Source: an uncultured Monoglobus sp.
Lineage (GTDB): Bacteria; Bacillota; Clostridia; Monoglobales; Monoglobaceae
DNA length: 64,000 nt
Assembly: GCA_947625055.1 (NCBI GenBank)
Contig: CANQMT010000003.1
Span: 1-64,000, forward strand
Direction: 5' to 3'
Numbering within the stretch: position 1 is the first letter of the stretch; the number at the start of each line of letters is the position of its first letter. The notes beneath the pieces are model-generated. The model was not told the DNA's origin. It did not search any database and saw only the letters and a list, made by a program, of their open reading frames with translations. Positions 47,145-51,652 of this stretch are shown one piece after another. The translations under genes were made by a program, and so were the position numbers.

Positions 47145-48449
47145 CTAAATTCCTATATCCTCGCCGCCGAGGATCTTGTTCATGTTCTTGACGGCGCACT
47201 GCTCGCCGCACATGGTGCAGGTGTTCTCCTCGCGGGGCTTTGAGCTTGCCCGATAAGCCTTGGGCTTCTCTGGGTCAAGCGCGAGCTCAAACATCTTGTC
47301 CCAATCGATCTCTCGGCGAGCGTCCGCCATTTTGTTGTCCCAGTCCATCGCGCCCTTGACGCCTTTGGCGATGTCGGCGGCGTGGGCGGCTATGCGCGAC
47401 GCGATTATGCCCTCGCGCATGTCGTCAAGATCGGGAAGGCGCAGATGCTCGGCCGGGGTGACGTAGCACAAAAAGTCGGCTCCGTTCGCCGCGGCTATCG
47501 CGCCGCCGATCGCCGAGGTTATGTGGTCATATCCCGGCGCGACGTCGGTCACAAGCGGGCCCAGCACATAGAACGGCGCGCCGTGGCACAGCCGTTTTTC
47601 CATGATCATGTTGGCCGCGATCTGGTTCATCGCCATGTGGCCCGGGCCCTCGACCATTACCTGAACGTCGTGCTCCCACGCGCGCTTTGTCAGCTCGCCG
47701 AGCACGATCAGCTCCGATATCTGCGCCGGGTCGCTGGCGTCGTCAAGACAGCCGGGACGGCAGGCGTCGCCGAGGCTTATCGTAACGTCGTGCTCGCGGA
47801 ATATCTCCATGACGTCGTCGTAGTATTCAAAAAACGGATTCTCGTTTCCGGTCATCTCCATCCACGCGAACAGCAGAGCGCCGCCGCGCGAGACGATATT
47901 CATTCTGCGTCGGTTGTTCTTGACTTTCTCGGCGGTCGCGCGGTTTATGCCCGCGTGGATCGTCATAAAATCAACTCCGTCCTCCGCGTGCTGACGGACG
48001 ACCCGCATAAAGTCGTCCTTGGTGATGTCTTTAAGCTTTTTCTCGCAGTAGCCGATCGCGTCATAAACCGGAACCGTGCCCAGCATCGCGGTCGATATGT
48101 CGAGTATCCTGCGGCGCATCTCGCGGGTCTTGCCGTAGTTTGAAAGATCCATTATCGCCTCGGCCTTCATGTCGATAGCGGTGCGGACCTTGTTGAGCTC
48201 AAGCTCAACATCCGCCGCGTCGCGCGATATTCCGAGGTTGACGTTGATCTTGGTCCTGAGGCCCTCGCCTATACCCTCGGGCGAGAGCGTGTCGTGGTGC
48301 TTGTTGGCGGGAATAACCACCGTTCCGGCGGCGATCTTCTCCGCGAGCTCGTTGATGTCGATATCCTCTTTCGCGGCGACGATCTCCATTTCGGACGTGA
48401 TTATGCCTTTTCTAGCCGCGTCCATTTGCGTTGTGTAACTCTGACTCAT
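47145..48449 (-). CDS. thiC: Phosphomethylpyrimidine synthase
   Basis: Radical SAM enzyme that rearranges aminoimidazole ribotide to HMP phosphate. The C-terminal iron-sulfur motif CTMCGEQC is present, and the core has [10 protein letters not shown] and [22 protein letters not shown] chose the start [10 protein letters not shown] (ATG at 48447-48449) because AAAAGGGG lies just upstream. The frame could begin 26 codons earlier, but those codons run through the terminator hairpin and next to the riboswitch. The resulting 434 residues match the short clostridial form without the plant/proteobacterial N-terminal extension. First gene of the thi operon. Confidence 0.97.
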
Positions 48450-48465
48450 AAAAATTCCCCTTTTC

Positions 48466-48504
48466 GCAAAAAATAATGCACTTGCCAAAATCGAGGCAAG
48501 CACA
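48466..48504 (-). terminator. Intrinsic terminator in the thiC leader
   Basis: On the minus strand a ten-base stem (TGTGCTTGCC / GGCAAGTGCA, two G-T pairs) is followed by TTATTTTTT. It sits between the riboswitch and thiC and is the likely expression platform: TPP binding would favour termination. Confidence 0.7.
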
Positions 48505-48525
48505 AATAAATTATCTAAAATATTC

Positions 48526-48612
48526 ATGCTTTCCTACGCCGGTGTTAGCCGTCAGGTTCAAAGGGTCAGGCCGCGCCTATCTCAACCGCCTCGGGCGGTT
48601 CCCCCAGCAGAT
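48526..48612 (-). promoter_or_regulatory. TPP riboswitch (THI element)
   Basis: Read on the minus strand it contains the conserved blocks GGGG near the 5' end, TTGAGATAGG (the CTGAGA-type block), GACCCTTTGAACCTGA, and CACCGGCGTAGG. The arms closing the element pair TGCT with AGCA. It begins within a few bases of the predicted transcription start and controls the thi operon by premature termination at 48466-48504. Confidence 0.96.
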
Positions 48613-48614
48613 AT

Positions 48615-48643
48615 ATTATAACCCAAGCCGCGCAGCATTGCAA
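48615..48643 (-). promoter_or_regulatory. thi operon promoter
   Basis: Minus-strand TTGCAA, 17 bases, TATAAT, ending right before the riboswitch. Confidence 0.8.
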
Positions 48644-48752: not shown

Positions 48753-48781
48753 TTGACTGAATTTTCATAATATGATATACT
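48753..48781 (+). promoter_or_regulatory. Promoter of the PBP-like/transglutaminase operon
   Basis: TTGACT, 17 bases, TATACT with an extended -10 TG. Predicted transcription starts at about 48787, the first base of the large inverted repeat, so the transcript begins with the structured leader. Confidence 0.8.
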
Positions 48782-48785
48782 AAAA

Positions 48786-48993
48786 CTGCGACATAACTTA
48801 ATATCGATTTCATATTTATTGTATGTGTTATTTTTATAGTATGTATTTTTATGCCTTTAGGCAAAAATGCAAGCTCTATTTTCGCATACTATATAAGCAT
48901 ACTGTATATGAAATCGAAAGTTGTGTCGCAGCAATCGGAGCTATGTATTTTTCGTGTGTGGCTCGGATTGCAGCCACACACTTTTTGTTTTTT
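48786..48993 (+). promoter_or_regulatory. Attenuator-like structured leader RNA, class unknown
   Basis: The 280-base leader starts with a long-range stem: 48786-48815 pairs with 48906-48931 (about 25 pairs, one four-base bulge). An inner hairpin at about 48845-48868 (ATGCC / GGCA around TTTA) lies within. Then comes a perfect ten-base terminator, GTGTGTGGCT (48954-48963) with AGCCACACAC (48972-48981), followed by TTTTTGTTTTTT. An alternative stem pairs GCAATCGGAGC (48931-48941) with GCTCGGATTGC (48961-48971), one G-G mismatch. It shares bases with the terminator, so the two exclude each other. This is the layout of a transcription attenuator. I see no conserved block of T-box, c-di-GMP, SAM or other classes I know. 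Confidence 0.65.
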
Positions 48994-49067
48994 GGGGGTG
49001 AGATTGCAAAAATATGCCAAATACAATTTAATAATAAAATTAATTAAAAACGAGAGGAGCATATGAA

Positions 49068-50351
49068 ATGAGAAAAATAACAGCTATCTTATTAGCAATA
49101 ATTTTATTGTCACTGCCGGTTTTGTCGTATTCCGATGAAATGACGGAAAGTGATAAAAAACCTGAGATTACAGCACTTAATTCATGCATAATGGACTATG
49201 ATACCGGAGAAATCTTATATGCCAATGCCGAAGATGAGCATCTTCCGGTGGCGTCTATCGCTAAAATGATGTCGGTTTATGTAGTGATGGATAAGATCAA
49301 AACCGGTGAATTGACGCTTGATACGGTTGTGCCAATCAGCGAAAATGTTTATAATCTTTCAAGAAATGAAGAATATAAAATGATGGCAAAACTTGAATAT
49401 GACGAGACTTACACACTTAATGAAATGCTTGACATGATTATAATAGACTCTGCTGCGGCGTGTGTTACGGCGGTTGCCGAGCTTGTGTCGGGAAACGAAG
49501 GTGAGTTTGTAAATCTTATGAACGCCAAGGCGGCTGAAATCGGTATAAACAGCGTTTTTCATAATGGAACCGGAGTGTGTTTGAATCCTGATACAGATAA
49601 TGAGGAAAATCTTATGTCTGCCAAAGAAGTTGCGGTAATGACAAGACACATGATACAAGATTATCCCGAGCTGCTTGAGAGAACAAAACAAGCCTCGGTT
49701 GATTTTCATGGAAATGTGTACGAAAATCTTAACAAACTGTTCACGACGTATTATTATGAAGGTGCAGATGGATTTAAAAACGGTATGACAGATGCTTCGG
49801 GATATTGTATGTGCGGCACAGCGGAGCGCGGCGGTAAACGTGTTATAACCGTCGCCTTAAGATGTGAGAGTAACGACGCGCGTTTTACAGATACCATAAG
49901 TATGTTTGATTACGCTTTTGATAAACTGGGAATTGATGCAACGCAAGCTGAGGATGCAACGCCGAGAATAATCGTTGACGGAAATCTGGTAACATTCCCC
50001 GATCAGCAGCCGGTTATAATTGATGGACGTACTTTTGTTCCAGTTCGCGGTGTGCTTGAGACAATGAATAAAAAAGTTGAGTGGGATGAGGAAAGACAAG
50101 CAGTGATAATTTCAGATGAGCTGATAACATTGGAACTTGTTATCGGCAGTCCGACAATGTTAAACGCTGTTACCGATCCGGTTTCAGGTGAGGTTTTTAA
50201 ATTTGAATCAGAACTTGACGCACCGCCCAGAATAATCAACGACAGAACTTGTTTGCCGATACGCGCTGTGGCTGAAGGCTTTGGGGTAAAGGTTGATTGG
50301 AATGACGAAAATCACACTGTTATTATAGATACGGGGGCTTCAACATGTTAA
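49068..50351 (+). CDS. Penicillin-binding-like S11 peptidase homologue with degenerate active site and copper-amine-oxidase-type wall domain
   Basis: A signal peptide (residues 1-22) is followed by a D-alanyl-D-alanine carboxypeptidase (S11) fold to about residue 295. Two copper amine oxidase N-terminal-like segments follow (VDGNLVTF, PVRGVLE, then PIRAVAEGFGVKVDW), common in secreted clostridial wall proteins. The SxxK motif is intact (S63-I-A-K66). However, the SxN motif reads S128-A-A, and the KTG motif reads K237-N-G. Both changes hit residues usually required for catalysis, so activity is doubtful; a binding or scaffolding role is possible. The start at 49068 follows AGAGGAG; the ATG five bases earlier stops at once. 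It overlaps the SLH-transglutaminase gene by seven bases. Confidence 0.85.
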   Translation: MRKITAILLAIILLSLPVLSYSDEMTESDKKPEITALNSCIMDYDTGEILYANAEDEHLPVASIAKMMSVYVVMDKIKTGELTLDTVVPISENVYNLSRNEEYKMMAKLEYDETYTLNEMLDMIIIDSAAACVTAVAELVSGNEGEFVNLMNAKAAEIGINSVFHNGTGVCLNPDTDNEENLMSAKEVAVMTRHMIQDYPELLERTKQASVDFHGNVYENLNKLFTTYYYEGADGFKNGMTDASGYCMCGTAERGGKRVITVALRCESNDARFTDTISMFDYAFDKLGIDATQAEDATPRIIVDGNLVTFPDQQPVIIDGRTFVPVRGVLETMNKKVEWDEERQAVIISDELITLELVIGSPTMLNAVTDPVSGEVFKFESELDAPPRIINDRTCLPIRAVAEGFGVKVDWNDENHTVIIDTGASTC

Positions 50352-51652
50352 AAAACTTTTTAAGTATTATATTAACAAGCGTATTGTTTGTCGCAATCAT
50401 TGGATTTAGCGCGTATGCCGCGGAAAATGATGCGGGCAAATATGTAATGGAGACGGAAAAACATGAAAAATATATGTCCGGCACCAGCGCTTTGGAATTT
50501 GAACCGGACTCATATTTGACGCGCGCAGAGACTGCGCAGATTATTTACAATCTTTTAACACAAAAACCACAAGTTTCAAATCAGTTTAAGGACATAGAGA
50601 ACAGCGAATGGTATTTTGAGGCGGTTAACAGTCTGTATTCCGCCGGGATCGTTCATGGAAAATACGGCGACGATACATACTTTCCGGACGATTTAATAAG
50701 CAGAGCTGAATTAATAGAAATGTTGTGCTATTTTGCCCCACCTTCAAATCTGTCTACTCGGGAAAGAATATCGTTTGATGATGTAAAGCCGGAAAATCCA
50801 ATGTATAATTATATTCTCAAGGCTGCCTCAAACGGATGGATTTCAGGATATGAAGACAACACTTTCAGACCTGAAAACCCGCTTACACGGGCTGAAGCGG
50901 TATGTGTGTTTAATCGGGTTTTAGGTCGTATTCCTGACGCAGAATATATAAGCGGCTCAAGTGATATGCGCTTGTTTGTGGACGTTGATTATGATATGTG
51001 GGCTCATGACAACATCATGGAAGCGACAGTTTCTCATTCATATGAAAAAACGGACACTGAAAAATGGACGGATTTTAAACCGGAATTGCCCGGTCTTTCG
51101 GCGGGTCCGCATATTTTCAATCATTATTTGTATTATATCGACGAGGAAAGCGGAAATTTTTTAAGAGACTGCGAAATAAAAGGATATACTTTAAATAAGA
51201 ATGGAAGATACACAACCGGTGACGCTGAACTTGACGAAAGTCTTCATAAGATCATCACAGAATTATGTACCAACGAGGCAAATAAAGAAGAAAATTTGAG
51301 AAAGGTATATGATTATGTGAGGGATAATTTCGTGTATCAGGCAAGGGCGCATGTTGCACGCGGCGCGAAAGGCTGGGAACTTGAATACGCAGTTCCGATG
51401 ATGCGAACCCATTACGGTAATTGTTACAGTTGGGCGGCAGTCTTTATGTATCTTGCAAGGAATGTGGGATTTGAAGCTTATTGCCAAAGCGGAGCGGTTG
51501 GAGCTAAAGTTGAGGATCACGGCTGGACAGAAATAATGTTTGACGGTGAATGGTTGATTTTTGATCCCGAACTTGAAAACGCCAATCATCAAAGGTGGTC
51601 GTTCTATAAACTGCCATATGACAATGATTTTAAAAACTATTATAAATATTGA
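50345..51652 (+). CDS. SLH-domain protein with transglutaminase-like domain
   Basis: Secreted (signal peptide about 1-25), with three SLH domains (residues about 35-225) for binding wall polymer, then a linker, and a C-terminal transglutaminase-like/cysteine-protease fold. The expected triad is visible: C360 in NCYSW, H392 in DHGWTEI and D407 in FDPE. Right after the SLH block it has SHSYEKT and EKWTD, matching the SHYYERA and ETWTE of the giant proteins. Its start overlaps the previous stop (ATGTTAA), so the two are translationally coupled. I infer a wall-bound enzyme that cross-links or trims surface protein or peptidoglycan; the substrate is not shown. Confidence 0.88.
   Translation: MLKNFLSIILTSVLFVAIIGFSAYAAENDAGKYVMETEKHEKYMSGTSALEFEPDSYLTRAETAQIIYNLLTQKPQVSNQFKDIENSEWYFEAVNSLYSAGIVHGKYGDDTYFPDDLISRAELIEMLCYFAPPSNLSTRERISFDDVKPENPMYNYILKAASNGWISGYEDNTFRPENPLTRAEAVCVFNRVLGRIPDAEYISGSSDMRLFVDVDYDMWAHDNIMEATVSHSYEKTDTEKWTDFKPELPGLSAGPHIFNHYLYYIDEESGNFLRDCEIKGYTLNKNGRYTTGDAELDESLHKIITELCTNEANKEENLRKVYDYVRDNFVYQARAHVARGAKGWELEYAVPMMRTHYGNCYSWAAVFMYLARNVGFEAYCQSGAVGAKVEDHGWTEIMFDGEWLIFDPELENANHQRWSFYKLPYDNDFKNYYKY

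Follow-up and report, generated by a model that had tools for sequence, protein, structure and literature searches.

The window, a 64,000-nucleotide stretch of DNA from an uncultured Monoglobus sp., carries on its forward strand a two-gene operon preceded by a long structured leader. Gene 1 (49068-50351, +) encodes a secreted D-Ala-D-Ala carboxypeptidase (Peptidase_S11) with a Cu_amine_oxidN1 domain, and gene 2 (50345-51652, +), which overlaps it by 7 bases, encodes a protein with SLH domains and a transglutaminase-like domain. A ribosome-binding site region, GAGAGGAGCATATGAA (49052-49067, +), lies upstream of gene 1, and a sigma-70 type promoter, TTGACT-17-TATACT with an extended TG (48753-48781, +; 10 of 12 consensus matches), precedes the leader. 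Back to back with the leader, on the opposite strand, a TPP riboswitch (RF00059, 68 bits; 48514-48615, -) precedes a divergent thiamine cluster composed of a thiC-like gene (47145-48527) and thiD/thiM/thiE-like ORFs extending to 44821.

The -10 box ends 4-5 nt upstream of the RNA element, and the 25-pair stem that the initial annotation had placed just behind a consensus promoter begins 5 bases past this box. The stem is composed of the closing stem P1 (48787-48799 with 48918-48930, +; 13 bp, found by folding and covariation), an AAUA bulge (48800-48803, +) whose bases are each 81-96% conserved in the class-wide alignment, and the lower part of P2 (48804-48815 with 48906-48917, +; 12 bp). Folding adds the P2 segments 48821-48826/48897-48902 and 48835-48842/48886-48893 (+), and P2 is seen again in copies with different sequences. 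P3 is formed by GUAUUUUU (48843-48850, +; strand 1) and its local partner AAAAAUGC. Strand 2, AAAAAUGCAAGCUCU (48863-48877, +), is by covariation the 5' half of a long-range pseudoknot, the 3' half of which, GGAGCUAUGUAUUUUU (48937-48952, +), belongs to strand 3. The same strand provides the antiterminator 5' strand, GCAAUCGGAGCUAUGUAU (48931-48948, +), found by both folding and covariation. Strand 4 (48954-48971, +) comprises the antiterminator 3' strand and doubles as the terminator 5' arm (48954-48963) and loop, and strand 5 (48972-48986, +) comprises the terminator 3' arm (48972-48981) and the U-tract.

The intrinsic terminator and the overlapping alternative stem described in the initial annotation are both present. 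The former has 10 bp followed by TTTTT (48954-48986), and the latter pairs GCAAUCGGAGC (48931-48941) with GCUCGGAUUGC, contains one G.G mismatch and occupies the terminator 5' arm and loop. In the minimum-energy fold this stem is lengthened through UAUGUAU/GUGUGUG (6+11 pairs). The leader folds at -76.7 kcal/mol versus -48.2 ± 3.7 kcal/mol for shuffles (z -7.7; 0 of 200 shuffles). The evolutionary test, which relies on compensatory changes in dozens of homologues, is stronger than this fold-energy test.

Homologue searches revealed that the leader is multicopy, a property beyond the initial annotation. The same genome holds six copies by BLASTN and 10 by R1, a covariance model built from the genus copies. 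Across the genus, BLASTN detects copies in 10 of 12 genomes, and R1 counts up to 35 copies in one genome; the closed genus genome, G002, has 0. R1 matches 35 of 38 family genomes, 1 of 13 genomes from the rest of the order and 79 of 291 genomes in the class sample (50 of 181 genera), a class-wide count that strict filters make a lower bound. The other phylum-sample genomes yield 0 matches to R1 in 298, which doubles as a specificity control. Relatives occur in Monoglobus metagenome assemblies from rabbit gut and in uncultured Oscillospiraceae, Ruminococcaceae and Clostridia of herbivore gut and rumen. Plasmids gave 0 matches, as did IMG/VR for one exact leader pattern. Two unannotated human-faecal contigs labelled 'Bacteriophage sp.' (MT837627.1 and MT835845.1), which may be bacterial fragments, each carry a leader copy. 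tRNA-linked islands were considered and rejected, a tRNA lying near only a minority of loci.

The covariance search proposed in the initial annotation was run and proved positive for the antiterminator and the terminator. Four helices covary among 114 distinct sequences: P1, the antiterminator, the terminator and the pseudoknot AAAAAUGCAnGCUCU/GGAGnnAUGCAUUUUU, a long-range helix in the leader family that adds to the earlier description a further partner for the antiterminator 5' strand. Alignment A1, a MAFFT alignment of the 38 genus copies not fitted to structure, gives 124 double-change cells for P1, terminator and pseudoknot together versus 33.5 in shuffles, with slid controls at or below 25. 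Alignment A2 comprises 115 class-wide matches (114 distinct rows). Its fitting used P1 and the terminator, so that the values for these two helices (99.1% paired; 270 double-change cells versus 66.9 shuffled) lean towards them. The aligning model contained neither the pseudoknot (95.5% paired; 77 double-change cells versus 27.6 shuffled) nor the antiterminator (92.0% paired; 49 versus 24.7); the antiterminator covaries least of the helices, with up to 37 double-change cells in its control slid by -2. The shuffle controls take no account of relatedness among sequences; with 67 representatives below 70% identity, all four helices exceed every shuffle.

Individual compensatory swaps include ACUC/GAGU replacing GCUC/GAGC and AAAAACG/GCGUUUUU replacing AAAAAUGC/GCAUUUUU. 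At paired sites, G-U pairs are far commoner than A-C mismatches, and therefore selection acts on the RNA of the sense (+) strand. Most copies show P3 complementarity, and its covariation is weak (68/112 against a shuffled maximum of 66), with no excess over shuffles for sequences lacking UGC flanks; we regard P3 as plausible. A second leader subtype, in tandem with canonical copies, is found at eight loci (L032, L044, L047, L048, L050, L071, L077 and L079) and has the flank AAAAACG/GCGUUUUU and a longer pairing, e.g., GCUUUGAUU/AAUCAAAGC.

The class consensus starts, behind the promoter, with UUGCGACACAA (P1), an AAUAU bulge, P2 and GUAUUUUUA-loop-UAAAAAUGC (P3), and continues with AUGCUCUNUUUUCG, P2', UUGUGUCGCA (P1'), CAAUCGGAGYUAUGCAUUUUUC and GUGCGUAGCUUCGGCUGCGCAC-UUUUU. 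Its five strands are GUAUUUUU (1), AAAAAUGCANGCUCU (2), GGAGYUAUGCAUUUUU (3), GUGCGUAGCUUCG (4) and the terminator 3' arm (5). Strand 3 is common to the pseudoknot and the antiterminator, making these two helices mutually exclusive, and strand 4, common to the antiterminator and the terminator, likewise makes those two mutually exclusive. In the aligned homologues, compensatory changes show that each of the pairings 2:3, 3:4 and 4:5 is kept; their alternation in time, and what drives it, we infer. The median helix energies are -7.1 kcal/mol for P3, -14.7 kcal/mol for the pseudoknot duplex, -17.0 kcal/mol for the antiterminator and -16.4 kcal/mol for the terminator.

Promoter, leader and gene form a regular cassette. 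Class-wide, among the 104 copies that score well for a promoter, 102 have a -10 box ending 4-5 nt upstream of the element, and this fixed spacing places the beginning of P1 at about the first transcript bases. The start codon follows the U-tract by 15-29 nt in about 61 of 111 copies. Wherever a downstream gene is clear, the leader has a constant (sense) orientation to it; some copies have no obvious gene downstream. Tandem copies each possess their own promoter (e.g., L024, L030, L032 and L201). A leader-peptide attenuator was considered and rejected, with no conserved upstream ORF and an internal ORF with a ribosome site in 1 of 115 leaders.

Two Monoglobus genomes carry an orthologous operon without the leader, encoding 86-87% and 75% identical proteins. 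Both operons retain the promoter and the ribosome site, with ~70 nt from the -10 box to the start codon versus 286 nt in the window, indicating that the element is a module, located between promoter and gene, that can be removed. In the RNA's place, the leaderless operons (G007:C9:22820 and G010:C38:19796; L085 and L084) contain a short GC hairpin, GCGGCGTTCGTGCCGC. A search for a leader remnant in the two operons gave nothing significant (p 0.19 and 0.67), and comparison of filled and empty sites, judged by eye, reveals no obvious target duplication.

Such empty sites, together with multiple copies at unrelated loci and tandem arrangements, could also be produced by a dispersed mobile element (a MITE, as named in the initial annotation, or an IS-borne attenuator) whose inverted-repeat ends mimic an RNA stem. 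Mobile attenuators have been described: related attenuators directly upstream of unrelated genes were attributed to transposon-borne terminators (Naville and Gautheret 2010, PMC2965389). This origin is nevertheless very improbable here, being already largely refuted by the covariation: compensatory changes extend over four helices, overlapping alternatives included, the G-U excess is strand-specific, the orientation to the gene is constantly sense, and the empty orthologous sites keep promoter and ribosome site without an obvious duplication. The initial annotation had counted missing covariation, a hit to an Rfam class or a match to a dispersed MITE family at unrelated loci against an attenuator; covariation is found and no Rfam class was hit, while copies do precede unrelated genes. 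Its central proposal, an attenuator leader of no known class, is upheld by the absence of an Rfam match, by the covarying alternative stems and by a geometry of promoter, terminator and ribosome site that fits. We conclude from the comparative sequence evidence that the leader very probably belongs to a new and widespread family of RNA switches that act in cis and attenuate transcription, whatever their signal.

The downstream genes define a regulon dominated by exported and LRR proteins. Domains in 75 downstream proteins include BspA-type LRR (LRR_5) in 21 and Cu_amine_oxidN1 in 9, along with SLH, CHAP, M23, S11, S8, GDSL and RCC1. A crude hydropathy rule predicts export for 39 of 45 downstream proteins of at least 150 aa versus 86 of 413 background ORFs (21%; p = 1.5e-18). 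The remaining downstream genes encode small orphan proteins, AbrB-like regulators and single cases. The regulon points to no single pathway or metabolite, a pattern uncommon among riboswitches. The initial annotation suggested wall stress or a wall metabolite as the signal; neither gains specific backing from a regulon that consists of exported and surface proteins generally, with the BspA-type LRR first among them.

Several small protein families recur behind the leader. Eight loci in several Monoglobus genomes (L015, L023, L034, L036, L037, L041, L046 and L075) encode an AbrB-like 79-80-aa protein that has CxxC motifs and is a possible regulator inside the regulon. Three orphan families, each of about 50-85 aa, are characterized by MNIKxELLK... 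(L150, L146, L126 and L139), MVDYKKLYxKLFN... (L105, L107, L109, L111, L192 and L196) and the cysteine-rich GxELxPGNxGKDCPGNG... (L132, L135, L148, L153 and L167); their representatives match nothing in Pfam, NCBIfam or PHROGs.

A trans-acting RNA-binding protein that binds P1-P2-P3 or strand 3, and thereby tips the choice between antiterminator and terminator, would accommodate this regulon, as the diverse exported-protein genes resemble the regulon of a regulator more than that of a metabolite. The conserved single-stranded GCUCUNUUUUCG and CAAUCGGAG could serve as its binding site, and among the genes found behind copies are one for an AbrB-like regulator and one of the LytTR type. Usual protein binding sites are, however, smaller than the conserved secondary structure of this leader, and two known types of regulator are disfavoured by gene absence: none of the 38 family genomes encodes the LicT/SacY RNA-binding domain (CAT_RBD), and 16 of them, including carriers with 9-21 copies, lack ANTAR proteins. 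Protein control of the leader is a minority reading, which we consider rather unlikely.

Gene absence bears also on a known riboswitch class that has diverged beyond the reach of Rfam, such as c-di-GMP-I/II, T-box or another. c-di-GMP switches are frequently located ahead of clostridial surface genes. Against such a class, neither the window leader nor the leaders at eleven loci holding relatives attain the gathering score of any Rfam 15 family, and with E up to 10 nothing comes near that score for the window or its relatives. GGDEF is absent in several carriers: G007 (28 copies, 94% complete), G031 (21 copies), G026, G028, G030 and G034. Control by c-di-GMP, LicT/SacY-type or ANTAR proteins is disfavoured because carrier genomes lack the corresponding proteins, an argument that is strong only in aggregate since some assemblies are incomplete. 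Overall, a divergent known class is highly unlikely. G002, which has no leader copy, encodes 14 GGDEF domains, and its copy-rich genus relatives encode 0-5; the two numbers may be inversely related.

A directly bound small molecule or ion, which would make the leader a riboswitch, is the most likely signal, at about an even chance, and is favoured over an RNA-binding protein; the regulon of exported and surface proteins would have this signal in common. Transcription is predicted to start at P1, and sensing would fall to P1-P2-P3, including the conserved AAUA bulge and the single-stranded GCUCUNUUUUCG. In the putative read-through state, 1:2 (P3) would form together with 3:4 (antiterminator) and polymerase would pass; in the stop state, 2:3 (pseudoknot) would form together with 4:5 (terminator) and polymerase would halt. 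Stabilisation of the pseudoknot by the signal would lead to termination, and absence of the signal to expression of the downstream gene, a polarity that is a guess leaning modestly to this side.

A physical switch without a signal, either a thermosensor or a kinetic attenuator responding to NTP or elongation rate, could draw on the A/U-rich pseudoknot and P3, the fixed promoter spacing and the similar strength of the competing helices. The conserved unpaired AAUA, GCUCUNUUUUCG and CAA exceed the needs of a pure stability switch, and we regard this explanation as improbable. Returning to the riboswitch reading, its fullest form, namely a new riboswitch class, restricted to mostly uncultured gut Clostridia, that coordinates the secreted and surface proteome through up to ~35 copies per genome by five-strand exchange between pseudoknot and antiterminator, is put forward tentatively, at slightly less than even confidence.

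A literature search found no paper describing the leader family, which could sit unnamed in survey supplementary lists (PMC8040213), outside that search. Mechanistically, the attenuating leader RNA is of a known kind; as far as our searches reach, novelty lies in the family, in the pseudoknot that shares a strand, in the locked promoter and in the surface-protein regulon. A regulatory RNA common ahead of surface-protein genes of rumen and gut Clostridia is absent from Rfam 15; the closed genus genome without a copy, together with carriers that are mostly metagenome-assembled, may explain why it was missed. The family would show how such bacteria jointly switch BspA-type and other surface proteins, and once its signal is identified, a cue derived from host or diet, or a new second messenger, could come to light. 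Since pseudoknot, antiterminator and terminator overlap and covary, a few compensatory mutants would test the switching model directly.

Several known systems resemble the leader in part. T-box leaders likewise are clostridial leaders with a choice between terminator and antiterminator; the window leader differs, having no T-box match in Rfam and no visible T-box sequence. c-di-GMP riboswitches (GEMM-I/II) are often present in many copies per clostridial genome ahead of surface genes and can be tandem, but here there is no sequence or profile match and several carriers lack GGDEF. Mobile attenuators (PMC2965389) also precede different genes; the present family differs in its four covarying helices, with no transposon trace seen. 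The trp/his leader-peptide attenuators differ in that no conserved leader ORF occurs here, and are alike in alternating 1:2, 3:4 with 2:3, 4:5. Attenuating riboswitches, e.g., the pseudoknotted preQ1 and SAM-II, share the structured 5' leader, conserved unpaired segments and a pseudoknot, as well as a mutually exclusive antiterminator and intrinsic terminator. Unlike the preQ1 and SAM-II types, this leader has a regulon of diverse exported proteins and no Rfam match, its pseudoknot and antiterminator share a strand over a long distance, and its transcription start is locked to the closing stem.
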